Positions 13,881-56,470 of a stretch of 64,000 nucleotides of DNA are shown one piece after another; the first letter of the stretch is position 1; every line of letters begins with the position of its first letter. Source of the DNA: Reticulascus tulasneorum (lineage: Eukaryota > Ascomycota > Sordariomycetes > Glomerellales > Reticulascaceae); contig LSAX01000013.1 of assembly GCA_001557505.1 (NCBI GenBank), positions 186,001 to 250,000 on the forward strand, written 5' to 3'. The notes below the pieces were generated by a model. That model did not search any database and was not told where the DNA came from. It was given only the letters and a program-made list of their open reading frames with translations. Both the position numbers and the translations under genes were made by a program.

Positions 13881-15982
13881 ATGCTTTGCGCAACATGCCA
13901 GGCGGCCTTTGGCCCTGCGTTGAAAGCAGCCGCCGTCGGCGCCCCGTATCCTCCAGCAACAGAAACCCTACATCTTCAGCCCAACATCTGGAAGCTTCAA
14001 GAAGCCGCTGAAAGCAGCTGTCAGATATGCCGCCATGCCTGGAATTTTCTTCAACGGCATGGCGACGTTCCACCCCTTGCGACATACAAGGCCGGTGACG
14101 CGAAGGAATGGTGGGAGCAGGCGGTAAAATGCGAGATCGCAAACACGTCCGACAGTCGTGTTATCAGTGTTCGAATTGGCTTTGCAAAGAAAGATCTGTA
14201 TGGCTGCGAGCTATCCATCGTGGGAACTAGCTGTTAGTTATATTCTAGCGCAACCTCAAACTTGGAGAGAAGCTGGCAGATCAATCCACCTTGGACTAAC
14301 TCTTCGGTAGATTATTCTGAGGGAACTCCATGTCAGCCAGCCGCGAGGAACATGTGCTTAAGTTACCGGACCAGTAAATTTTCACTAACATTTGGGCAGA
14401 TATGCCAGAATGCGCTGGATACCGGCCCATCTCGACGAACACGGGCTCTGAGGCCTGTTTGGACCTCGCCCGAAAGTGGCTGAGCGAGTGTATTAAGCAC
14501 CGATGCAAGGTATCGAGCCTTGATAATTCCCCTCCATTTTATCCGACACGGCTTGTCGACCTCGGCCCTCTTTCAGACCCTTCTAGTCCTCCATGCCTTT
14601 GTATCACCAGCGAATGCAAGCCAGACGGCCCCTACACTACACTGAGCCACTGTTGGGGTACAATACCATTTATCGTCCTCACTGCTGACAATCTTGAAGA
14701 TTTCAAGAAAGAAATTCCGGTTGAGAGGCTGCCGAAAACATTTCGAGATTCGTTTCAAGTGACTCGCAAGCTCGGCGTTAGGTATATCTGGATCGACTCC
14801 CTTTGCATCCTGCAGTCCGGGGATGGAGCGAGGACGGACTGGGAGGCCGAATCTGCTCAGATGCATCGGATATACGAAGAAGGGCATTGCAATATCGCGG
14901 CCTCGGCATCCTCGAATGGCAATGGGGGTTTGTTCCTTGACAGAAACCCGCTGGAGGTCGAATCAAGCGAAATCGATATCACTCCAGACCACGGCAAATG
15001 GAAGGATGTGTACAAGGTCGTTGACGACGAGTTTTTCCTGGCGCATGTGAATAACTCTCCCCTGAGCCGCCGGGCTTGGGTTATGCAGGAGTACCTATTC
15101 TCCCCGCGCATCCTGCAGTTCGGTAGGGACCAACTGTTCTGGCAGTGCCAAAGGTTCCATGGGTGCGAGACTCACCCTTGCGGTCTCGCGAACACGTTTT
15201 CGCGTCTGATGCCGACTCTCCGGGATAACGACAAATTCGACCCTCCACTCGACCTGTCTGTTCGAGGGAGCAGCTACCACACTACGTCAAACTTTCTGAG
15301 GGCCTGGCAACGCCTGGTCAGAGCGTATACGTCTTGCGGATTGACGAAAGAAGAGGACAAATTGATGGCACTGGCCGGGCTAGCTCAGAGGTCATTGGAG
15401 CTTTCGGACGGTAAGCTGTCTTACTACGCCGGCTTATGGTCTGGGCGTGACCTGATCGCAAGTCTCCTCTGGAGCGGAGCCCGTGAGGTTGGTCACCAGG
15501 CTCCGTTTCGACCCAAAGCCTACCGAGCACCAACCTGGTCCTGGGCATCGATCGAGAACCAGATTCATTGGCCTGTAGATCTTCGAAATACCCAGCGCTA
15601 CCAGCAGGTCGCTACGATATCTCACATACACACAATTTCCCGGACCGGACATCCCACCGGCCCATTGAAGGAGGCCAAGTTAATCATGAAAGGCCCCTTG
15701 TTTTACAGTGTATTCTCTGATGCAGAATCAAAATCCCCAGTTCATCTGAAGGCGGAGACTGGCGATTTGATTCTGGATGTGCCAGGCGAAGAATACCAAC
15801 AGAGTATCTGTTTTGGAATCGCCATGGACGATGCACATTTCACGACACAGGCGTACGGAATCGCCCTGTTGAAGACCCTCGATGGTTCATATCGGCGAAT
15901 AGGATACTTCTCATTATATGGACTTGCCGCGATAGAGATGTTTAGGAACGGCTGTGTCAAGAAGGAGATAACAATTATCTAG
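13881..15982 (+). CDS. HET-domain (heterokaryon incompatibility) protein
   Basis: Three exons (13881-14232, 14311-14331, 14400-15982) give 651 residues. The middle exon is only 21 nt. It was chosen because it restores the frame and yields SYYSEGTP-YMPECAGYRP, the usual lead-in to the HET domain. HET signatures are clear: YTTLSHCWG, LGVRYIWIDSLCILQ, MHRIYEEG and RRAWVMQEYLFSPRILQFG. The N-terminus begins MLCATCQAAF with a second CQICRHAWNF motif, common in the group. HET domains are TIR-like modules that trigger cell death in non-self recognition. No NLR or other sensor domain is attached here, so a trigger cannot be inferred. Splice choices for the two small introns are the weakest point. Confidence 0.82.
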
Positions 15983-23212: not shown

Positions 23213-25080
23213 GATTACGTCGGACTTGTAGCTTCGAAAATGATCGAAAATGACCAAGTTACAGAGGAGGCCATATTAATTACTGCAACGCCTCGAACGA
23301 ACTCTATATGCCCCTTCAACCCCGCCAAAACGCTGAGTGAGAGTTCGAGTGCAATGACGCTGACATATGCTTTAGACTACGTCATTCTGTGACTGAGCAT
23401 ACTGCTGGCCGACTACTTGATTCGCAGTTATCGTTCTTATCGTAGCAAAAGTTGGAGTGCAGCCGTGGTGGTAATCCCTGTTTTCGCACCACAATCTGAT
23501 CATCATCAGTCATCAGTCATCAGTCATCAGTCAGCCACCCGGGTTCCGGCTATATCGGCTCCGACCCGAGTCGACAATCTCCTCAAGAACACACCCGGGT
23601 CCCGCAAGGTGTTGGATGGAAAGGACTGTCCGTTTGAGATCGGCCACGACTTTTGATAGCCCGTTCATGTTCATGTTCGGGGTGGGATGCTCATTCAGTC
23701 GCGATCGAACAGAAAACACCAGAGGGTGCTGGAGTCACGGCCCGCCTCCCCGGCCCGCCCTCCCCAGCCCTACTACTGCTTGGAAATAGAAATCCTTCGG
23801 GCCAGAGTGGGCGCGAAGATCCCTCGACACGGTACCTGCGCAGTCGCGCCCACTTGGCCCCATGCGGGAGGGGATTTTGACGTCTGCTTCGAACCCCTCT
23901 CGGGCAGGTATCATCGCGATGTCTGAATTAAGATTGTGTCCGTGCACGCGTGCAATGGCCTGTCTGTGCTCAATTGTTAGTTCAGTACCTTGAGGGATCC
24001 ATCTGTCAGCTTCGGAAGTACAAAGCAATGCAACAGTCGGTCCGCTTTCCCTGGAGTACTGGGCGGCGCGATGCGTGGCTGGTTGGAAGTATCCGCTAGA
24101 CAAGCAAATGGCCCGATAGTGTGCAACTAGAGCGTCCCAAACCGTCCATCGCCTCACTCGCAGCGCACGGAATCGTTTTCCATGGGCATGGTTATTTACA
24201 GAGTAGTCTGACAAAGACTTGTCGGGTCCGTTGATGCTGACGATGACCAAGGACATCACCGCTTCTTTTAAATGCCCCTAATTCCCGTATCCATCCCCGC
24301 ATCCGCAAGGCTCGACAGCTAAGATGGCTCCGATCAGTTGTGGGCGAGAGTGCAGCGAGACTATCGCATGCGGTAATGGGCATGGGGAAATGCGACGTTT
24401 GTTGAGACCTTCCGAGTTCGGTACAGATACTTGGCATCCACCTTATCTTCTTTCCGGGGTCACTGGCAATGCCAGACTTCATGCCAGTCATTTTTACGTG
24501 TCAAATGCCAGCCTGCGAGCCAAAACCAGGATCCGACTACCGCTGTCAGCATACGACCGCAAAGAGGAAGGTCGAGCAGGGGCTCGAGGATTTGACCTCA
24601 AACTGGCCAAGCTGGTCATAGGTTCAGCAATATTGAGACACATTATTCAATCGACAGTAGCGGTTCTTTTCCAGCCTGCCATTTCAAAGTAAGAGCGCCA
24701 TACTCAACCCTCCGTCTTGGGCATTGATCACAAGGCGACCTTCCTGATTAGCGTAATGCTACGCAGTATGCCCAGTCTTGTCGAGCAGGATCTTAGCACC
24801 TTGACGATCTCCTTCCATCGCAAGCTTAGTTTTAGCGGCGCGGCGCCTTTGGCGTGAGCTACGCAAGGGCCTTCCTATTTTACATGGCCAGACTTTGGTA
24901 GAGAAGGCCTCGTTTTGGGATGGAGATCCCAACGGTGTCAGGTTTGGTCCGGTTGTCGGCACGAGCTTAATTTCCGCCAAGAGAGAGGTTAAAAGAAAGC
25001 AAGACTCCCAATATCTATCATTTGAGACAGTTGTTCTTTCGTGCGGAACTCTCCAACAATCTCAGACCCTCGCCGCTAAC
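23213..25080. other. Divergent intergenic region, 1.9 kb
   Basis: Promoter space for the sulfite oxidase (minus) and the secreted protease (plus). Apart from a heptamer microsatellite at 23504-23531, no gene or repeat is supported. Confidence 0.4.
23504..23531 (+). repeat. Heptamer microsatellite
   Basis: CATCAGT repeated four times without interruption. Confidence 0.9.
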
Positions 25081-28000
25081 ATGTTGCTTTCCACTCTTTG
25101 GTTGCTGGCATCAGCTGCGATCGTGTCCTCGAAATCTCTCCCGGACATCCCATTGGTAAGACCAGAGGACCTGAAGACCAACGAGGTCACGCACGGAGGC
25201 TTCATTGTGCAGCTAAAGAATGATGCCTCACTCGGAAAGCGCGCCGGAAAGCGGAGTTCCCATGCGCAGTTTCACAAACGGGCATCTTTAGCACTCGATT
25301 ACGAGGTTCGAACAGAATTCACCAATGAGAAGCTGTTCCACGGAGTCTCTATTCAACTCAGCCAAAATAAGACAACAGCCGAGATTGAGAGTCTCTTCAG
25401 TGACATCCCCGAAGTCAGGGCCGTTTGGCCTATTCGCCTGGTTTACAGGCCAGATGTCACCAAAGTCGCGGGAAACTTCTCTGCTTTCGCGAGCGATGAG
25501 TCCAGGGCTGCTGTAACCGGCGCTTGGACTCCCACTGATGACAGTCCCGTTCTCCCTCTTATCAAGGGAGCCAATGTCGCATCGACTCACAAGATGGCAG
25601 ACGTTGACAAGCTCCACGCTCTGGGTATCAAGGGCAAAGGAATCAAGATTGGTGTCATTGACACAGGTGAGTTGAATTCGGGGGACATTCGAATGTTATC
25701 CGTGCAGAAAGTTGCTGACACCAAGCTCTACTCAGGCGTTGACTACCGTCATCCTTCGCTGGGCGGCGGGTTTGGACCCGGATTCAAGGTTGCTGGAGGT
25801 CATTCTTTCATGAATGACGAGTGGTATGGCGTAGGCCAGCCCATCGAGAGCCCAGACCCTTTGGCAACATGCGACGGCAATGCGCATGGCAGCCACGTGT
25901 CAGGTCAGTTTGAGTGCATAATGCCACTTCACTCTCTCATCTGACATCCTTTAGGAATCATTGGTATGCAAGACCCTGAAGGCCAGGGCTTTGGGCTGAG
26001 TGGAGTCGCCCCTGAGGCATCTCTCTACGTTTACAAGATTTTCAGCTGTCTTGTTGGCAGCACCCCTGACGACGTCATCATGAAGGCTATGGTTAGGGCC
26101 GCTGAAGATGGCGTAGATGTTATCAACATGTCTCTTGGCTGGACATCTTATTTCGAGGCCAGTTCGCCCTTCACGGAGCTTATCAAGTCCATCATCGCCC
26201 AGGGAACGGCGCTTGTCATATCTAACGGCAACGACGGAGAGTTGGGAATATACGCCCAAGCAACTCCCGCGGATGGTCCCGGTGTCATTGCGGTAGGCTC
26301 GGTTACAAATGACGTCTTCCCTGTCGCGTATACCGGCGAGGATTCCACGGGTGAGAGCTTCAAATATGGCTCCGTCTGGCCATTGGAGGCCCCGGAATTG
26401 AAGACATACTTTCACGGGGATCTGTGCTCGTATGAGGCTGTAAGTTCTTTCACAATGCATTTTGGAAGAAATTGTTGGCTGACCGGAACTTGAATAGTGG
26501 ATTACTACTGCTCGGGCGGTCTCTGATCCTGACAACACCATTATAATCGCTCAACTAGGTCGTTGCGCATTGGGATCCCAGATGAGTGGAGCGTCCGCAT
26601 TTGGACTCAAGTACCTCCTTGCGTACACTCTGGAGAGTGTCGACCCATCTCCTTTTGGCCAGGATATCGAGACCCAAGTTCCCTTCCCAAGTGTCGCCAC
26701 CATTGTGGTCCCACCAGCTGCGGGGGCTAAAATAGCCAAGAATGCCCAGGCTGATCCAGCATACACGCTCAAATTCACCAGCGTTGCCGCGTCCAGCATC
26801 GAACTCGTTACCGGAGGACTGATGAGCAACTTTTCAAGCTTCGGCCCATCTTGGGATTCGCTAACGGTGAAGCCGAGTCTGTCGGGCCCGGGTGGAAAGA
26901 TTCTGTCAACGTATGCCCATCTTCCATTTCTCTCCACGATATCAAATATGCTTGGTACCTGACCTAGACTGAGCTGACTGTTTCATTGCGTAGATGGCCT
27001 CTTGGACCTTCTGGTGGCTATGCGATCATCTCTGGGACATCAATGTCCGCACCGTTTGTCGCCGGATGCTACGCCCTGGTCAAGTCCCAATACCCCGGTC
27101 TTTCCGTCGCGGAGATTGCAAGCCTGCTCACGTCAACTGCAACGCCGATGTCCTACGTCTACGACAAGTCGATTCTCTCAACAGTTGCCCACCAAGGAGC
27201 CGGCATGGTTAACCCCTATAAGGCGATTACCTACAAGACGCTGGTTTCTTCTCAGGTTCACATCGGTGACCTCGATGACTTCACCAGAACTCCACAGACA
27301 ATTAAGATTACCAACACGGCTACCTCTGGTAAGAAGATCTTCCAGATCTCGCACCAAGGTGCTGGCTATGCCGAAGTTTTCCCGTATCCTGAACTCCTGG
27401 AGCCGAATGACTGGAGCTTGTTGGGGCAGCCTCAATATTCAACCTACGCAACCGCTCGCTTCTCACAGCCCAGAATCACTGTCCACGCCGGCGAGACACT
27501 GGAGTTCCGAGCCTACATCACTCAACCCAAGCTCACCGATGCGCAACTCCTCAAGACACCGATCATCTCCGGCTTCTTCCAGCTCACGTCTGACCAAGAA
27601 ACCCACACGATCCCATACATCGGTGTCCCGTATTCCCGCCAAGACGAAAGCATATTTGACCTATCAGTTTACACTTTTACAGACGCCTTGGGGGTGACAC
27701 ATTCCGCCAAGCAGCCATTCGTATACTGTGGAACCTGCATGGATAGAACCCCCAATCCCGGTTTCATGGAATACAATGGAACAGATTGGGCGTTCGCAAC
27801 GCTCTGGTTCAACTTCCTTACAGGCTTTGAGCATTTCCAGACCAACATCGTCCCCGCGAATACGACATTCAAGCCTACCCACCACGGGGGTAGCCCCGCG
27901 AAGAACTCCGGTTACAAGTACCTGGATCCGGGCATCACACCCCACGACACATGGATGGGAATGCCCAGCTATGGTTGGCTTCCTGATAGTACGCAGTATG

Positions 28001-28301
28001 ACAACTACGCGCCCAGAGAGGATACTGCGTTCTCTTGGCCGTATCAGGCGTACATTCCCTTCATGTGGGGTAAGTCTTCCAAGCTCACTTGTTATTTGTC
28101 CCTGAATCCTCGTACTAACGTCTTTTAGGAGCTGCCTGGTTCCACACAATCAACGAGGACGGCGAGACGTTTGAGTATCTACCCAACGGTGATTATCGAC
28201 TTCTGATGTCGGTCCTCAAGCCTGGGTCCGATTATGCAGATTATTCGAAGTGGGAGACATATCTGAGTCCCGTCATTAGACTGGTGGGCGACAATTTCTA
28301 A
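25081..28301 (+). CDS. Secreted subtilisin-like serine protease (S8)
   Basis: Six exons (25081-25666, 25736-25903, 25955-26439, 26498-26910, 26994-28069, 28129-28301) encode 966 residues. MLLSTLWLLASAAIVSS is a signal peptide, followed by an inhibitor-type propeptide. The catalytic triad is visible: Asp194 in GVIDTG, His246 in GNAHGSHVSG and Ser567 in SGTSMSAPFVAG. The oxyanion Asn lies in VISNGNDG. The long segment between His and Ser fits a PA-like insertion, and some 400 residues after the Ser form a C-terminal beta-rich region as in minor extracellular protease Vpr-type fungal subtilases. The frame is open upstream to 24895 but without an ATG. Expected to degrade extracellular protein. 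No neighbour suggests a specific target. Confidence 0.92.
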
Positions 28302-46443: not shown

Positions 46444-49400
46444 TTATGCTAGTGGTTGGTCATTCTCCTCCAGCCAAGCCGTCAGAGTTGCCAGTGTAGA
46501 CACCGCGTACGGATGATCTAAGCCTAATACCCTTTGCTGGAGCTCAGAGCAACTTTGTATCAGATCAAGAGCATCTCTGTGACGACCTATATCTTTGTAA
46601 ATAAAGGCGAGATTGCTCATGCTGACCAGTGTGTCAGGATGGCTCGGACCCAGCACCCTTGAGGAAGATTTAAGTTCCATTGCTTGCAGTTTCTCTGCCT
46701 CTTCCCATCGACCCTGATGCCAGTACGTTAACGCTAAGCTAGCCATACTAGCTAGCGTAGAGGGATGATTGACCCCAAGCTTCGTCTTACGAGTTTCCAT
46801 CACTTGTAAACCTAGCTTCTCGGCCTCATCCCACCGGCCTTGATCCCGGTAGATTGACGCTAGGTTAGCCATGCTGGTTAGTGTAGAGGGATGATTAGCC
46901 CCAAGCTTCGTCTTCTGAACGTCTATTACCTGCACCTCTAGCCTCTCAGCCTTCCCCCATCGACCCAGTTCCCAGTATGTTGATGCTAGGTTAGCTATAC
47001 TAGTCAGCGTATCAGGATGTTCCTCTCCAAATATATTCTTGCTCGTCTCCATCACATATACTTCTAGCGTTTCAGCCTCAGTCCATCGACCTTGATCCCG
47101 GTACGTCGACGCTAGGTTGGCCATACTAGTCAGCGTGTCAGGGTGCTCAGGCCCTAGTACCCTCTTCCTCGTCTCCATCACATATACTTCTAGCTTTTCA
47201 GCCTCAGTCCATCGACCTTGATCCCGGTATGTCGACGCTAGGTTGGCCATGCTAGTCAGCTTGTCAGGGTGCTCAGGCCCCAGTGCCCTCTTCCTCGTCT
47301 CCATCACATATACTTCTAGCGTTTCAGCCTCAGTCCATCGACCTTGATCCCGGTACGTCGACGCTAGGTTGGCCATACTAGTCAGCGTGTCAGGGTGCTC
47401 AGGCCCTAGTACCCTCTTCCTCGTCTCCATCACATATACTTCTAGCTTTTCAGCCTCAGTCCATCGACCTTGATACCGGAACGTCGACGCTAGGTTGGCC
47501 ATACTAGTCAGCGTGTCGGGGTGCTCAGGCCCTAATAGGTCTCTCCTAATATCAATAGCTCCTTTCTGAAAACCTTCCGCATCTTTCCACTGGCCTTGGT
47601 AATCAAAGAGCCCCGCGACAGAGTGGAGAAGAGTAGCCTTTGCTATCCCTTCGTCTCTTGAACCAGTCCCATCGTTGCCAAGCACCGTATGTGCATGCGC
47701 AAGGTATGCGACACATACAGCCTGGCTTTCATGCCTGCCATACGGGTAACAATGCGACACTGCTAATAGTGCTTGGCCCTCGAAGTGCCTTGCTGCGCCC
47801 TTTTCGTCGAGCCAGTCCTGCGTAGCGACTTGTACAAGTCGGTGCATGCCAAGGACATTGTCTTTCTCCTCTTGTACGAGAGAAAATGCCTTAAGCATAC
47901 CGACTGCCTTCGTAAGTGGAAGTACCCCTTTAGGCTCTTGCTGCTGCTTGCCGTAGTCGGCCAGAAATTCCAACGGAATAGCCTGTGGGCCAAAGAAGCT
48001 CATGAGTGAGAGAAGCTCACTCGCGAAGGCATCATCCAGCTGGATCTGCTCGAATGATAGAATCAGTGTCTCTGCTAACGTACGAGTCTTCAAGTTTCTG
48101 CCAATCTCAAACTCCGTGTTGAATAACTCGACGTGATGCTGGTTCCTGTCCATAAGCTGTAGATACTTGCTAACGGTCATAGTTTTAGCTCGGATAAAAC
48201 CTGCCGCGTGGACGAGTGCAAGAGGTAGATGTTCTAGCCGAGAAGAAAGTGCCGCTAATTCAGCGGAGGAACAGTTAACTCCCTCAAGTGTGGTATGAAG
48301 TAGCTCTTGTGCCTCGTTTGTATGCATTGCTGCGACGTCGATGGAGACAGATCCCTTGGGAAGACCCGAGCTAACCTGCTTACTCCTGGTCATGATGAGG
48401 ATTGATCCGTGAACGCACTGGGGAATGTAACATTCGAGGTTCTCTTGTTGAGTGGACGCGCTGTCAGCCATTGAGTGGTCAAAAAGGAATTGCGGGTCGT
48501 CGGCATCATCGATGACCATCAACCACTGACCACGGTCTTCCCTCTCCAGCCACCACTTCACCATCAACATAATGTCCACCTCAGGATCTTCATATCCAGG
48601 AATTTCGAATATTTGTGCGATTGAAGCGTATGACTGGCGGAGGCTCTCGACATCGCTTCCGTGGACCCAGAATACTGATACATCCGGACATGCCTTTTGC
48701 AACCAGTACACGTACGCAAGTGCAATCTGCGTTTTCCTGTGATAGATTAGCAAAGGCCACCTCGAACAGTGGCGAAATTACCCGATGCCTCCCACGCCGA
48801 TGAGGGCGACCATCTGGGCCAACGTGCTTGGTTGATGCTGCCCGTGGCCGAACTGATGTTTCAGCTCTTCGAGGACGTTGGAGCGTCCAATAAAGTACCG
48901 ATTCTCGGCGAATGGCACAAGAACTATTCTTCTGTTAGCCTGGTCCGACAAATTTGATACACTCGACGCACAATACGTGCCGAGAACCTCGACCGTCTTG
49001 ACCGAACCAAGGAGCGTAACGCATCCGGGATCTGAGGTAATGATTAAGTAATTTCCGCACAACGCTTGTGGCAATAAGCCCTCAAAAGCGAGATACAGAG
49101 AAGTTCTGAAGTTTATTCCATCCAAGACCATGAGCCAAGAGCCACTGAATGACCACGTGAGATAGTGTACAAGGTGTCGTCTCCTCACAGACGCATTTCC
49201 GGCTGTGGCGATAATAGTCGGGAAAAGGTCGGCCATCTCAGCCAAAGACCGATTGATACTATCTTCGGTACTTGCGTTTATCCAGAAGATGGAGAAGGGG
49301 CTGTCTTTTTGGAGTCTGTGAGCGAGTTCGCAGGCAATAGTTCGTTTTTCCATACCCGATAGACCAGCAAGCACAACCCTAACTTGCTGGTCCGACTCGG

Positions 49401-51691
49401 GCCCTGATATGAGAATTTCTTCCAGCTGATCCATGACGTGTTCTCGACCTTTGAATTCTGCTTTCCTAAGAGGAATATGGGTGGTTTTGGGCCCCACAAA
49501 GGGCTCTAAGCTTCATCAGCATAGTCACCACAACTGGGATCGAATACGTTGGCCACTTACCCCATGTTCCGTTGCCGGGACAGTATGGAGGTGCTGCATA
49601 TCGTGACGAAGAACTCAATTCATCGATTGCGTCCTGGAATAGGATGGACCACTGTTCCGCATCTATTTCGTCGCGCATCATGATCATTGCGTGAAGTCTG
49701 TCGGCCCTAGCTTGCCAGACGTCGAATGCGGCTTCATCAGAATCCGGTGGCACCGTTACGGCACCAGTTTCCAGATCATGCATGGTTTCAGAAAGTTGCC
49801 TGGCCGAGATGGTAGGGTATTGCAGCTTGGCAGTGGCATTGTTGGTGGATTGAGTATCCGACAGGACGGCATACGTTCGCACTGTCGCACTTGTATTGTT
49901 CTCCGATAGGTTGACTACGGTTTCAGGAAGAGCTCGAAGGGCAAATTCGTGCAAGTGGGCCAAGATGTGATCGTCGATGCCGGCCGTCAAGGAATCGCTC
50001 GCAAAATCACAGAGAGGACAGGATAGTTGCCCGATCATTTGTCGCTTATTGATGTCGGCGAAAATACTCTGTTCTTGCGGCGCAATTAAATCTGGGTGCA
50101 TTTTCACCACGTGCGATGTCCAGGCCTCAGCCGTCGGAAAGAATTGTTTCGGCGTGTGAATACTTGTTTTACTTCCTGCCTTGACTCCGTCACCGTAAGA
50201 GCAGTAGTCGCAAGTCCAACATGGAACAGAGTGCTCTTCGAGCATATGGGCGAGCAGTTTTTGGGCAGTTAAGTACATCTCATCTGGAACGACGCAGTCA
50301 TCGAAGATGCAGGAGTAGGGAACAAGGTCTTCGGCAACATGTGCCCTGCATCAAACATGTCAACGAACCGAACGGCTCGCAAAAGGGACACACGAGGGTA
50401 CTATACTTACTTCCAACTCTCTCTGTATCTTGGCTCAGCATACTCTGCCGGCAACAGATCGTCGCAGTATGGACATATCAACGAGCCGTTCATATCTCGG
50501 GACGGACAACGAGGATACGTCTGGGACGCACCAATTCGTGTCATATTTGTGACTGCCGATACCTGTTTCCGGGCCAGAATCAGCTTGAACCTTTCGTCGA
50601 GATCAGAGCCAGCCTCGGTGATAGTAGCGGTAGCGGTGACGGTTTGTGACTGGCCAGCCTCACTGCTCGCCTGCGGGGTTGGACGTGACACCGCCAAGCC
50701 GGGATTTGGCTGCTGCGGAACGACTCGACTGGCTGCTGCTTGAGATGACGTGCCTGCCATGCCGGGAGATTTCACCAGTGGTCCCGGTTGCTGAGTTGAC
50801 CTCATTAGGCCGGTTCGCAACTGGCGAGACTGAGCCATAACCTGGATTCGATTTCTCCTGAGGATATTGGCACGGATGAGGCGTTGCTGGACCTTGCCTA
50901 GTCTTGTAAAGTCTGAGACGCGAGTCATCTTTGCCGAGGCAGACAGATCCCGAACTTCGGAGTCTTCAAATGCCCTCAGGATGACAACGGTGAGGTGCTT
51001 GCGAAGATCCACAAACGTACTTTCGTCCAGCGAGGCATCTGCTTTTCTAAATCTGTCCTTGTTTCCAGATTTTCGAATCGCCACGGCGAGTCGAGAGAGC
51101 TGACCAAGGATTGATTTGACATAGGACATATGCTCGGCCACGATAGGGTCCTCGACGACCAAGTCCTCGGGGACCGAGTCCGAGGCACCAGATATGACGG
51201 CCCAGGACAGAGGGCTCTCAGGCCTCTCCTCATCTGATAACTCCTTGGTCGGTCCAGCATCACTCGCTGTGGCTTCAACCTCTTGCAGGGCTGCGTGACC
51301 GTCAGCCAGGCCAAGGACCAGAGCAACCGGGCAGGCACAACTCACCAACAATGGCATCGAAGCACGTCTCTACCGAGTCGGTTAGAGCACGAATTAGGCC
51401 GCAGATGGCCGCCCGAGCATCTCCTTTCTTCCTTAAGCAATGACCCAGGGATGACCTGCTGGTGCTGATCGCCTTGGTGGCCGCACACCACAGGTTGAAG
51501 TCTCCCTGCGCGGAGTGGAGCCATCCCTGCTGCGCCACAGCAGGGTTGGCGACACATACCTCAAAAATATGCTTGCACCGCCGGGCGATGGCGGATATCT
51601 CAGCGTTTTCATTCATGTGAGTTACGGAATCCAGCTCAATGGTGAGGCGAGGCGACTTATCGATACCGAGCGGGGGAAACGAATCCGGCAT
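46444..51691 (-). CDS. NLR: zinc-finger module, tandem NB domains, TPRs
   Basis: Five exons (51691-51346, 51290-50411, 50345-49561, 49505-48782, 48736-46444) encode 1675 residues. The N-terminal ~370 residues are helical and then low-complexity. Cys/His pairs of C2H2 type follow at 388/391, 421/426, 451/454/457 and 518/521/535/539. A first nucleotide-binding domain (GREHVMDQLEEIL, from ~690) has a degenerate P-loop, GLSGMEKR, at 718-725. A second (FIGRSNVLEEL, from ~875) has an intact GVGGIGKT at 907-914, completed across intron 4, and Walker B WLMVIDDADD from 983. TPR repeats of 42 residues run from 1314 to the end. NB plus TPR proteins are STAND sensors in which repeats bind a ligand and oligomerise to activate effectors. 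The downstream effector here is unknown. The adjacent protease and gasdermin genes are candidates. Confidence 0.85.
46525..47532 (-). repeat. TPR repeat array, eight 126-bp units
   Basis: Eight consecutive 42-codon units start at 47532 on the minus strand and run to 46525. Units 1-4 (47532-47029) are nearly identical in DNA and protein. Units 5-8 are increasingly diverged. A partial ninth unit ends the protein. Confidence 0.9.
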
Positions 51692-52038
51692 CGTCGGGGT
51701 AGGGCGGTGAGATGAACATGGCCAGAAGCTTACTTGTGGTCACATGACATAACGCTTTAGACCTGTCGGGTCGTAAACAATGTCAGCTGCTAAGAAACGC
51801 TTCTTCTTGATCAGCAAATTCATATGATGATCACTGATAAATTAAGAAGGCTGTTCACTAGATATTTAGAGAGTACCCAATAGCTCTCGGGCCTCACTGT
51901 CACTCCATGTTATTGGGTGTCACGGCGACCGATATCCACTCGAACATCTGGATGCACCTGGAAATCGGAGCAAAAGGCACGAGTGGGACAAACGCGGACA
52001 CAAGATGAATAGCCTTTTAACTCGAACTGAGGGTCTAT
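51692..52038. other. Spacer between S8 protease and NLR
   Basis: 347 bp between the protease stop and the NLR start, same strand. It must hold the protease terminator and NLR promoter. No clear motif recognised. Confidence 0.4.
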
Positions 52039-55000
52039 CTAGGGTGTATATCCTCCCAGACCATGTTTGAGCATCTCACGAATCAAGTTCGGTTCCAGGG
52101 CTTTGAAAAACCGCTTGGGATAGACGAGGTCGTAGCCCCCCTTCCGGTTCTCCTTGGACATCATGTGGAAGATAATCCTCACGCCTTCGGGACTCATAGG
52201 ATCCGTATTCCAGCCGAGGTCCCCTAGATTCATGCGTATGTAACCGATGACGAATGCAGCGATGGACACTGCGACCGGGGTGGCAAACGATGTCCCTGAC
52301 ATACGCCTATACCCGACGTCCCCCTCCCTTCGCATCGGCCAGGACGACTTAATGCCGTCGCCCAGCACGGTAAAGTTGTCCTTCCCCGTTTCCCTCGGCT
52401 CTGCCGTCGGATTGAAGTCTGAGCAACTGCCGTGACCTGTGGCCGAATGAATGCAGAGCACCCGGTCATACTTGCCCGGATATGTGCGTGGCATGTTGGC
52501 GCCGTCGTTGGAAGCCGAAGAAAACATGATGATATTTTCTTTTAAGCATTTCTCGACCTCTTGCTTGACCGTGTCGGGGCCACCCGCCTTGTGGTAGCCA
52601 AATGACATAGAGATCATGTCGACATGCCATACCGTTCGCGCCCAGCGCAGCGCCTGTAGTTCGGTCGGTTAGCCAAAACAATAAAGAAATAAAGTTAAAA
52701 TAAAATAAAATAAAATAAAAAAAGGGGGAGAGGGAGGGGCCAACTAGCTTCAACGATCCGATCTCGATTCACGGATAGCCGCGAATCGGTGACCTGGGCA
52801 ATGTACAGCTCGATGTTCGACGTCAGATCGAGTACAATGCCGGCGATATGGGTACCGTGGCCAGACGGGTCCACTCTCGCATCGCCACCATTCACAAACG
52901 ATTTATACTCCACAATTGGCTTGCCCAGGAAGTCCTGATGGTTGGCGTCGGCGCCAGTGTCGAGAATGGCAACCTTTATACGTTGCGGCTCGCGACCGAT
53001 CCGGAATTCAGTGCGCATCATCTTGAAGGCCTTGACCCACTTGTCCGCTTGATCGCACCTGCCCGTTGTTAGCGCTTGTCGCCTAAGCTAATATATCGGA
53101 ATCAGAGGGTCTTTACAGGGCTGTGGGAACATCATGGCCGTCCTCGGCGCCAAAGAGCGGGCATTCGTCTTCATCGTCCTCTTTCTCCTCCGCACGCGTA
53201 CTGTGGTGCAATGGCCGATCTGAGTTGTCGTCTGCGAAGGAGTCCGGTGAGTAAGACGGCTGTGGTTGTTGAGTGGCGATCTGAGACAATTCGGGCGACG
53301 AGGGAAGAGGGAAATCGGAGTGGGATGGCGCACCAGCCTCGTTGAAGTCGATGGGATCGGGTGTGAAAGCCTCGGGCCGCTGTTCCCCAGAGAGCCACAT
53401 GGTGGAAAACAGATTATCAAGAGGCCAGACGACGGCCGCGTACAAGCTGTCGCGCGTCCTATTGGGATCCAGACGCGACGTGTCCGGCTTCACGCAAATT
53501 TCGATCGCCTCAGCTAGCGGCAGAGGAGCCCGCTTCCGCCGAGCCTTCCACTCTAGAGAATTGAGGACACTGGAAGCGGCAATGTGGGCGGCGTTCGCGC
53601 GTTGCTGGTCGTTCATGTTGAGCGAATCTTCGCCGCCGGGGACCATAATGGGTCGTCCGAGCTCTATCTCGAGAAGCACAATGCCCAAGGCTAGAACTTT
53701 TGGCAGAATGTGGGTTCGGCCGCTGGTATGTTCCGCCGCTGTCTGCGGTGTCGTGCTCACCCGAGGCGTCGAGGATCGCAAGTCAGCTAGGATGAAGGGC
53801 TGGTGGCTGAGCGGGGCTATCTGTTGTCGCTCTTCTAAGCCATCCAGATCCTGTCGCATGAAATGCACAGCGTCCTTGATCCAATATTCGGTGATCCAAT
53901 CCAGGTCGTAAAACATCCAGACCGCCTTGGCCAGGAGGTACGACAGAAGCAGCCTGCGTTGCTCGTCGGTCCTCATGCTGGCTGATGCAAGCAGCCTGGC
54001 AAGAGACACGCTTGGTGCTCGAAGAGATATCCTAGGCTCGCCGGGCAGCTCAACTCCCTCTTGAAACAGACCGTTGTTGGAGGCGCTGAGCTTCACGAGC
54101 GAGGGATCGCGGTCTCGGACAAGGGTGCAGAGCTCGGCGATCTTCTCGCCAACTTGCTGGAATTTGGCGGCGGATCTGCAAGCAGCCACGCTACGGGTCT
54201 CGACAGCCGGCACCCAAGCCATCCAAGCCAGTACTTGGACGTAGGCCGGTCTCTCGAGATCCGCACCGTGGGGAACGTCAGCCACCGATCAAGCCAATCT
54301 TAGATCGCCACAGGAAACATACCCCTGGAGAAACGCGCGTATGCGAGTCTCCCTCCAGTCGCCGGATGCTCTCCCGTCCTCGACATGAACATGTAGAATA
54401 AACATGTCAATGATGACATCGTCGCCGGATCGGGTAGGACCCAACGCAAAGTTCAGCGACATGTTCGCCTTGAAGTGCCCGACCTCGACGCCAACGACCT
54501 TCGGGCAGTGGGCGAGCCTGCACAACGTCGCGTACAGCTCGCGGAGACACTCGCAGGTGGTGTTCTCGGCTCTCGGCTTCGACCGGATGCCGTCTCGAAG
54601 CTGGGAAGCCTCGGACCCCCGGGGTGGCGTCTCGACCGGTGCAAACGCTCGAAAGGATTGGCGCAAGGCTTTTCGGGAGAGCGTGCCCTTTGCCCCCGAT
54701 CCCGCCAGCCCCACAATGCACACCCGTGCTAGCCGCTGTCCCACTTTCTGGTTGTTGGCTACCAGGTGGAGGCGAGGATACGATTTCGGATTGAAGCGAT
54801 TCGGAATCGGTGGCGGCGGTTCGAAGCGATTGGGCCACTGCGCGCAATAGTTGGTTAGCAACGCGAATTGATGCAAGTTTTGGGTCTGAGCCAGTCGGCT
54901 TGCCGTTGATAGTCTCTCGAGAGCGGCGAGAAGCTCGCAGACCTTTTCCTCGGTCTGAGTACCGCTCTTCAGTCGCTCCTCGACAGCATCCAGCTGTGCC

Positions 55001-55197
55001 TCCAGCACTGTCAGGAAGGGTCGTGGGCTAGACTTCGTGTCGGAAGCGGCGACCGACTTTTTGGGGGTTGGCGCGACATCGCCGGAGCAATCGAGGAGGC
55101 CGGCCAATGCATGGCGAACTTCAGTACCGAGGCCGCCCGTCGCCTTAATGGCGAGTCGGTCAAGCTGTTGTCGTCTTGGCTCTCTGGGGGTAGCCAT
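52039..55197 (-). CDS. Intracellular subtilase with DUF7580-like N-terminus
   Basis: Four exons (55197-54323, 54250-53117, 53058-52749, 52653-52039) give 977 residues. No signal peptide is visible, so it is probably cytosolic. The N-terminal ~620 residues are helical. LLLSYLLAKAVWMFYDLDW (~392-410) and HILPKVLALGIVLLEIELG (~472-490) are the signature of DUF7580, a module linked to fungal NLR and cell-death proteins. The S8 domain follows with Asp703 in ILDTG, His737 in SGHGTH, Asn822 in SSASND and Ser895 in SGTSFATP, all intact. Intron 3 (52748-52654) is placed with a GC donor to keep RIVEA-LRWARTV. Divergent from the gasdermin-like gene at 430 bp. It resembles HET-Q2-type proteases that cleave gasdermins. 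The partner is inferred from position. Confidence 0.84.
52696..52720 (+). repeat. TAAAA microsatellite in intron
   Basis: Five TAAAA units followed by extra A and a G run, inside the third intron of the subtilase gene. Confidence 0.9.
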
Positions 55198-55627
55198 GGT
55201 CGACGGTAGCGACCTAGCACGAGCGGGGAAGAATTGGGAGTACCGTAGGAGCGGACCGGCGTCTTACTCTCCCTCGGGGCCAGAGTTGACTGCAAAAGCA
55301 TCGGGTGTTATCACGCTATGTTATCACGCTAGCCAAGGGCCTTCGACCCGAGCGGCAGTAGGCGGACGAGGCATCGAATATCCCTCAGCTCCCACAAGTC
55401 CAGGTTGGATCGGTCTGGACGGGGCCCGTGCTGCTCCTGATGGCTCGCTTCATTGGCCAACTGCGCTGGGACAACGGCGGCTTTGGGACGATGGTCCATT
55501 CCAAATGTTTTGTCCAGCGCCAACCCACAAAATTCTATCCATCGTAAAACTTCTGGACTGGAACACAATTCCATCTTTCTTCGACGGGAGTGAGTCAGTA
55601 TAAAGCTCGTAAGGGGCCGACGCAGCG
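55198..55627. promoter_or_regulatory. Bidirectional promoter of protease and gasdermin genes
   Basis: 430 bp separate the two divergent start codons, so the protease and its presumed substrate share this control region. No TATA or known factor site was recognised with confidence. Confidence 0.5.
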
Positions 55628-56470
55628 ATGAAAGGTGACCCCGAATTTATCATCCTCAAGCACGCTGCATGGGTGTCGGCCGAATTCGAGAAGAGCATCC
55701 TTGGCGCCATCATCAGGCATCCGCTCTCCCCGTCGACCGACCACGTTCCCAGCGCTCCGCTTCAATATAATAAATACGACCTACTAGAGCGCACGGCCAC
55801 CGATTTTGTCCTCGCCAACACGGGCGCCGCCGCTAGCGAAGTGAGCGGCGCGGTCACGACCATCGCCAACTTCGCGATCAAGGGTAGAACTGAGGACAAG
55901 ATCCACCTCCAGGGCAAGTTACTGCGTATCAAGCGCCTCCAGCAGGTGGGCGAATTCTGGGCCGGCCTCCGGTCCGACCCGGCCGTTAAGTCAACCGTTC
56001 CCGGCTGGATATCCTTCTACAACACTTGGCCCGCCTGCTTGGTCGTGGGCATCATGATCTGCGAGGACGTCGAGCTCGGCGTCAACACTGTGACATCGGA
56101 CCAGTGCCTGGCCACCGGCGAGGTTCCCGTCGGCGCCATCGCCCTTGCCGTTGGCGCACCCGCACCACTCGGCAACTCAGTCAACCCAAAACTCACCGCC
56201 TACAAGAGTCGCGAGGCCGCAACCGGCTTTGAGGCTAGATTTAGCAGCAGCCAGATATTTGCCGTTGAGCTACGGAAGGTTACGACCGAGCGTTTCCACT
56301 GGAAGGAGCTGAAGCTGAAGAGTGACGGTCCGGGCAACATTGACCCTTCCCGTCTGGCGAGTAATGAGTCAGACGAGGACAAAGACGACGACCTCGACAA
56401 GCCAATTGACCCTGAGGACTTGATTTGTGTCGAGCTTGACTCCAAGGACTCTAGTGATATGGCACACTGA
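55628..56470 (+). CDS. Gasdermin-like pore-forming protein (HET-Q1/RCD-1 type)
   Basis: Single exon of 280 residues with no signal peptide. The N-terminal pattern (FIILKHAAWVSAEFEKSILG, then IIRHPLSPSTDHVPSAPL), a YDLLERTATDFVLANTG segment and a later VPGWISFYNTWPACLVVGIM with a GAIALAVGAP strand match the fungal gasdermin family as I know it. The C-terminal ~35 residues are acidic and short, as expected for the fungal form, which lacks the large autoinhibitory domain of animal gasdermins. Family members bind acidic phospholipids after proteolytic removal of this tail and kill the cell. The divergent S8 gene is the presumed activator. This is a cell-death effector of the fungus itself. Identification is by recognised pattern, not by alignment. 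Confidence 0.82.
   Translation: MKGDPEFIILKHAAWVSAEFEKSILGAIIRHPLSPSTDHVPSAPLQYNKYDLLERTATDFVLANTGAAASEVSGAVTTIANFAIKGRTEDKIHLQGKLLRIKRLQQVGEFWAGLRSDPAVKSTVPGWISFYNTWPACLVVGIMICEDVELGVNTVTSDQCLATGEVPVGAIALAVGAPAPLGNSVNPKLTAYKSREAATGFEARFSSSQIFAVELRKVTTERFHWKELKLKSDGPGNIDPSRLASNESDEDKDDDLDKPIDPEDLICVELDSKDSSDMAH

Follow-up and report, generated by a model that had tools for sequence, protein, structure and literature searches.

What switches on the proteases that activate fungal gasdermins is stated to be an open question in the part of the literature drawn on here (PMC12881547). A candidate answer lies in the 64,000 nucleotides of the Reticulascus tulasneorum genome analysed in this study (the window), which are positions 186,001 to 250,000 of contig LSAX01000013.1 or, in our numbering of the genome (42.8 Mb, 35 contigs), C6:186001-250000. 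Three adjacent genes are predicted there to encode a divergent fungal gasdermin (fGSDM), an S8 subtilase and a NOD-like receptor (NLR) with two nucleotide-binding oligomerisation domains (NODs). We consider it probable that they form a regulated cell-death unit, in which the NLR would sense a trigger, the protease would be activated through a C2H2-type module and a DUF7580 region, the gasdermin tail would be trimmed, and pores would kill. The locus thus offers a candidate controller of the protease, the linked NLR, and a candidate contact, from C2H2 module to DUF7580.

Three adjacent genes

Open, spliced models were obtained for both large genes, with three introns in the protease and four in the NLR. 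Judged by introns and protein relatives, the window is typical of a filamentous ascomycete.

55628..56470, forward strand: divergent fungal gasdermin, 280 aa, single exon
55198..55627, no strand: region of 430 bp between the gasdermin and protease genes, which stand head to head
52039..55197, reverse strand: S8 subtilase with DUF7580, 969-aa model, introns 54322-54251 (acceptor uncertain), 53116-53059 and 52772-52654
46444..51691, reverse strand: NLR, 1675-aa model, introns 51345-51291, 50410-50346, 49560-49506 and 48781-48737

The initial annotation of the window had placed all three genes here, and these models bear it out. The start codons of gasdermin and protease face each other across 430 bp, and the NLR lies 347 bp from the protease on the same strand, both as it had claimed.

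A divergent gasdermin subclade

Direct searches with the 280-aa protein gave no match in Pfam, none in the PDB (E <= 10), and no other match in its own genome (E <= 1). A search of the genome with the last catalytic exon of the protease found an S8 gene on contig C2 (locus L043), preceded by an ankyrin-repeat frame; the gene beside its S8 frames has a weak PDB match to HET-Q1 (E 0.086). A paralogue of that gene, L045 (E 2.6e-15), matches RCD-1 in the PDB at 4e-6, and a search with L045 only yielded 27 relatives. Against the 29-sequence profile of L043, L045 and these relatives, among which the window protein was not included, the window protein scored 12.5 bits, compared with 5.4 bits for the best decoy (313 open reading frames, ORFs, and 5000 shuffles). 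L043, L045 and the frames of the candidate itself were the only ORFs of the 313 with scores that high.

A wider search, with a seven-row alignment including the window protein, found 82 proteins, of which 31 are close relatives of the window protein (38-89% identity). We compared a 31-row clade profile, comprising the window protein and 30 of these 31 relatives (a 164-aa fragment was dropped), with a canonical fGSDM profile of 37 of the 80 other fGSDM-like sequences (L043, L045, and 27 and 51 relatives), whose rows were thinned by hand for diversity and fragments and were partly gathered with the alignment that included the window protein. The two profiles match with 97.6% probability in hhalign (E 3.1e-12) over 226 columns, nearly full-length and colinear; the best of 100 column shuffles reached 2.7% and the reversed profile 1.3%. 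The clade profile still matched the 29-sequence family, in whose collection the window protein had no part, at 92.1% (E 6e-7, 104 columns). The canonical profile in turn matches the solved gasdermins RCD-1 (3.9e-17) and HET-Q1 (4.9e-9). Because of this controlled profile match and the matches to RCD-1 and HET-Q1, membership of the 280-aa protein in a divergent fungal-gasdermin subclade is supported at the sequence level. The gasdermin-like identity claimed in the initial annotation is upheld in this way, through the chain of profiles to the PDB and not through structure.

It is very improbable that the family merely shares remote ancestry or composition with fGSDMs and forms no pores. Such a relationship would fit the first, weak tests: BLASTP of the window protein gave E 0.011 with L043 and E 0.007 with L045, hhalign of a two-sequence profile only 0.4%, and with a two-sequence hidden Markov model the gasdermin candidate ranked below two shuffles and a spurious ORF. 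It would also fit otherwise conserved stretches such as VYMITGIKIA and VFAY, which read ACLVVGIMIC and IFAV in the window protein, and the want of a direct PDB match and a confident structure model. Against it stand the nearly full-length colinear match with its clean controls and the protease neighbour.

The genome holds two further fGSDM genes. L043:48-4144 (C2:176547-180643) is a second gasdermin-protease locus, in which an ankyrin frame and then S8 frames are convergent with a 291-aa fGSDM, and L045 (C2:3952350-3953380), of whose frame 268 aa were read, is a third fGSDM.

The subtilase and the acidic end of the gasdermin

About 80% of fungal gasdermins have a protease as neighbour, and about 63% of fGSDMs an S8 protease, according to the cited portion of PMC10197012, and proteases of the Q2L type may bear repeat or kinase-like domains, according to that of PMC12881547. 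The spliced protease model contains DUF7580 (residues 262-570, 7.9e-16) and Peptidase_S8 (696-901, 8.1e-20) in Pfam.

53416..54150, reverse strand: DUF7580 region of the protease, proposed receiver of the NLR signal
52039..53021, reverse strand: Peptidase_S8 domain in two exons, with D703, H737 and S887 in the 969-aa model

The catalytic motifs DTGAD, GHGTH and GTSFATP start at residues 703, 736 and 885. The last of these puts the catalytic serine at 887 in the 969-aa model, which corrects the Ser895 given earlier. An intracellular S8 subtilase had been claimed: the peptidase domain and its motifs are present, and the N terminus appears non-secretory by inspection. With an Asp/His/Ser subtilase domain, a multidomain architecture that includes DUF7580, and a gene 430 bp from an fGSDM gene, the predicted protease is of the published Q2L kind. 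One part of the model should be read cautiously, as the first intron has a good GTATGT donor and no clearly best acceptor: the 72-bp choice ends in GAG, the alternatives that keep the frame end in TAG (132 bp) or CAG (147 or 237 bp), and if the intron is retained an in-frame stop falls near 54291. The model is therefore uncertain over as many as 55 residues following residue 291. We rejected a domain shared by the first exons of protease and NLR, which gave no match on comparison. Kinase homology of DUF7580, which has a kinase-like look, was likewise rejected on a sequence search, whose sole match was irrelevant (ribosomal, E 0.91).

The predicted substrate carries a candidate site of regulation at its C terminus.

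56330..56467, forward strand: acidic tail of the gasdermin, residues 235-280, with a net charge of -12; putative inhibitory piece that the protease would remove

HET-Q1 is reported to lose a C-terminal piece of roughly 5 kDa (PMC12881547, in part). The boundary of the tail, window residue 235, is our own choice and was taken from that piece, so that the agreement in tail length with HET-Q1 is by construction and the charge alone is a result. The last stretch (median 45 aa) is acidic in all 31 clade members, with a net charge of -5 to -18 (median -12), and the remainder of the protein is near neutral (-3 to +7). Activation without cleavage, by a divergent allele or by the NLR itself, with the protease serving another substrate, has a precedent in RCD-1, which is described as not controlled by proteolysis (PMC12881547, in part); we consider it improbable here, given a protease gene head to head at 430 bp and an acidic end kept in 31 of 31 clade members.

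A tandem-NOD receptor

The NLR that would act upstream of the subtilase has four recognisable parts.

49913..50347, reverse strand: C2H2-type module, approximately residues 386-551
48778..49497, reverse strand: first NOD, with a degenerate P-loop, and start of the second NOD
47800..48777, reverse strand: second NOD, with an intact P-loop (split by intron 48781-48737), and DUF7779
46557..47612, reverse strand: tetratricopeptide repeat (TPR) array of 126-bp (42-aa) units, with 46957-47534 at 91% internal match

Both features by which a fungal NLR is recognised were found, namely C-terminal repeats (TPR_10 in Pfam, 1.1e-112, nine stretches) and a NOD with an intact P-loop (GVGGIGKT at residue 907, canonical in both of the relatives described below). 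The first P-loop, at 718, is the degenerate GLSGMEKRT. The tandem NOD proposed in the initial annotation is thus real, as the degenerate and canonical states both recur in two relatives. NB-ARC was above the cut-off in proteins P0110 and P0111 and below it in the split frames of the window NLR. All four intron junctions match those of the annotated Cercophora relative; the annotated Monosporascus relative matches at three, with a gap of five residues at the first. Conservation is higher in the N-terminal and C2H2 parts (79-88% identity in Cercophora and 68-73% in Monosporascus) than in the second NOD (64% and 51%) or the TPR array, which is 64% identical in Cercophora and of which only 15 residues could be aligned with the Monosporascus annotation. 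Within the array, the units at 46957-47534 are nearly identical in DNA (126-bp period, 91% match), as expected of repeats reshuffled between alleles.

Linkage of gasdermin and NLR in other fungi

We scored relatives of the NLR on residues 1-1150 among 7,992 candidates sharing most words, which gave 198 matches, and the best 120 of these are considered here. Of these, just two span the full region (98 and 100%, against 48% for the next match): OQA88_1853 of Cercophora sp. LCS_1 (74% identity) and DL768_010977 of Monosporascus sp. mg162 (60%). The same two organisms have gasdermin orthologues, OQA88_1851 (87%) and DL768_010975 (83%), in each case on the same contig as the NLR (948,736 bp in Cercophora and 19,328 bp in Monosporascus). 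In both, gasdermin and NLR are two locus tags apart, with one tag between them, as with the protease in the window. Cercophora belongs to the Sordariales and Monosporascus to the Xylariales, so these are genera of two subclasses. The initial annotation had held that loss of synteny in relatives would speak against the three-gene system; no such loss was seen in the gasdermin-NLR half, to which this comparison applies.

No such NLR was found among these best 120 matches for eight other named organisms of the gasdermin clade (from Dactylonectria, Colletotrichum, Xylaria, Pestalotiopsis and Periconia), and for this reason the third gene may be confined to the closest branch. The 83-87% identity of the gasdermin across genera of different subclasses is itself high for a family whose evolution is described as birth-and-death (PMC10197012, in part); horizontal transfer and strong constraint are both possible.

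C2H2 modules recur beside DUF7580 genes

DUF7580 occurs at 13 places in the genome by Pfam, 12 of them above the cut-off. We read about 20 kb around each of 10 of the 12 places outside the window and found C2H2-module genes beside three, where the module accompanies NB-ARC (contig C32), NACHT (C17) or WD40 (C15). Counting the query itself, genome-wide searches with these three modules found 6 places for C15 and 6 for C17 (both at E <= 0.001) and 7 for C32 (E <= 0.01), with a union of seven. For five of the seven, the distance to a DUF7580 match is 1.8-3.8 kb (one each on C15 and C32, two on C17, and the window). At the one of these five that the reading of neighbourhoods had not brought up, a C2H2 frame runs towards serine/threonine-phosphatase frames; it is on the opposite strand to its DUF7580 gene and apparently head to head with it. 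The one clear exception to the pairing is the module at C1:2341854-2342270, in a 1244-aa frame, which has no DUF7580 detected nearby (the nearest is 437 kb away); the place at C16:645778 is marginal (E 0.009), and contig C16 carries no DUF7580 match.

With the module of locus L023 as query, four of the five non-query matches lie within 5 kb of DUF7580, for which P = 5e-10 under random placement; this value is a guide and not a formal test, as it was beside DUF7580 genes that the seeds had first been noticed, and as immune genes may be clustered. Because the first look of the search is word-based, it may overlook modules that are more distant. Since five of seven module places are less than 4 kb from a DUF7580 match, the data suggest that C2H2-module receptors with varied sensor parts pair recurrently with DUF7580 partners. 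In our reading of the window locus, the DUF7580 partner bears a predicted protease domain and has an adjacent putative gasdermin to cut. Around the 10 DUF7580 places read outside the window, a profile search of single frames (E <= 1) found no gasdermin-like ORF of at least 60 aa. The DUF7580 partners at four other loci (L023-L028, L031-L032) seem to start with a hydrophobic stretch, for example MAEIAGLVLGAVPLL, unlike the window protease.

A proposed mechanism and its alternatives

From the open genes, homology, motifs, architecture and linkages computed above, we infer every activation step of the three-gene unit. The TPR array would sense the trigger; the second, ATP-binding NOD would drive assembly, with the first, degenerate NOD as a scaffold or lock; the C2H2 module would engage DUF7580 of the neighbouring subtilase and so switch the protease on. 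The subtilase would then trim the acidic tail from the gasdermin, and the gasdermin N domain would make plasma-membrane pores that kill the cell or compartment, in infection defence or nonself recognition. Control of the protease by the NLR, proposed in the initial annotation, is what we infer with the backing of the C2H2-module/DUF7580 linkage.

Several observations weigh against this mechanism. Neither the window protein nor the 31-row clade profile directly matches any solved gasdermin in the PDB (E <= 10), the clade has no Pfam family (three stray matches at E 0.03-0.1, each to a single member of the 31), and AlphaFold2 gave no usable model of the gasdermin (pLDDT 32.6 from the single sequence and 29.8 from a three-row alignment). 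The annotated Monosporascus NLR is without nearly all of the TPR array. The gene between gasdermin and NLR in both relatives is known as a locus tag only, and synteny of the flanking genes would make the linkage less telling. Finally, the NLR was seen in only two of the 10 named organisms of the gasdermin clade, among the best 120 of 198 matches.

This last point also favours a functional unit of two genes, the known gasdermin-protease pair, in which the protease would sense through its N-terminal and DUF7580 regions and the NLR would be linked by coincidence or act in another pathway. Two-gene fGSDM-protease clusters are the described rule (PMC10197012, in part). We nevertheless regard a two-gene unit as rather unlikely, as the same two-tag spacing is found in genera of two subclasses, the C2H2-region exon of the NLR has no close paralogue in its own genome (E <= 0.001), and C2H2-module genes repeatedly adjoin DUF7580 genes.

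We advance more tentatively the wider reading of the three-gene unit as a fungal inflammasome of separate parts: a conserved NLR-protease-gasdermin unit, possibly wired by a C2H2/DUF7580 adaptor pair that also serves NB-ARC, NACHT, WD40 or phosphatase receptors. If this is true, the C2H2/DUF7580 rule would match receptors to partners across genomes, and DUF7580 proteins would serve one class of fungal receptors generally as partners acting downstream.

Other genes

A HET-domain gene (PF06985, 2.2e-30), another gene of cell-death type, lies about 30 kb away at window positions 14402-15982. A second S8 subtilase gene, at 24895-28128, has an fn3_5 domain and, by inspection, a signal-like N terminus; it is apparently secreted and separate from the trio. 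Elsewhere in the genome, the subtilase at C17:109966 was set aside, its N terminus looking secreted on inspection.

Comparison with known systems

Gasdermin-S8 pairs and NLR-protease fusions are already published. In the literature searched, we found no account of a conserved, separate NLR next to a gasdermin (the gene lists of Clave et al. 2022 stood outside the comparison), no paper on DUF7580, and no description of a C2H2/DUF7580 pairing. In the Sordariales, according to the cited part of PMC12258605, few or no NLRs begin with an S8 domain, and five NLRs have zinc fingers as their sole N-terminal domain.

The comparisons that follow draw on parts of the cited papers. The window locus resembles HET-Q1/HET-Q2 of Podospora anserina and the Q2L-fGSDM two-gene clusters, in which a fungal gasdermin is likewise encoded with an S8 protease (PMC10197012, PMC12881547) and, for HET-Q1, removal of the tail is reported (PMC12881547). 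It differs in adding a separate tandem-NOD NLR, which is near the gasdermin in Cercophora sp. and Monosporascus sp. as well, and in having a gasdermin that falls in a divergent subclade; moreover, het-Q1 and het-Q2 are idiomorphs, whereas here the gasdermin and protease genes sit together. In NWD2/HET-S and PP-motif NLR-HELLP clusters, an NLR is also encoded beside a cell-death executioner (PMC12881547). As described there, these systems signal by amyloids to HeLo or HELL proteins, with no protease or gasdermin, unlike the window locus.

The contacts within mammalian inflammasomes are those of CARD and PYD, in whose place the window locus would have a C2H2/DUF7580 contact. The order of the mammalian pathway, from NLR inflammasome through caspase-1 to GSDMD, is the same, with separate sensor, protease and gasdermin (PMC12881547); the window locus has a subtilase where mammals have a caspase, and a putative short tail in place of the large inhibitory domain. 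The contracted pathways, in which NLR-S8 or NLR-CHAT proteases lie next to fGSDMs, likewise bring NLR, protease and gasdermin into one locus (PMC10197012, PMC9815663). There the protease is fused to the receptor, whereas the window has a gene for each, as mammals do. If the proposed unit is real, fungi possess both contracted (fused) and expanded (separate) NLR-protease-gasdermin pathways, and the logic of the mammalian inflammasome could therefore be studied in laboratory fungi.

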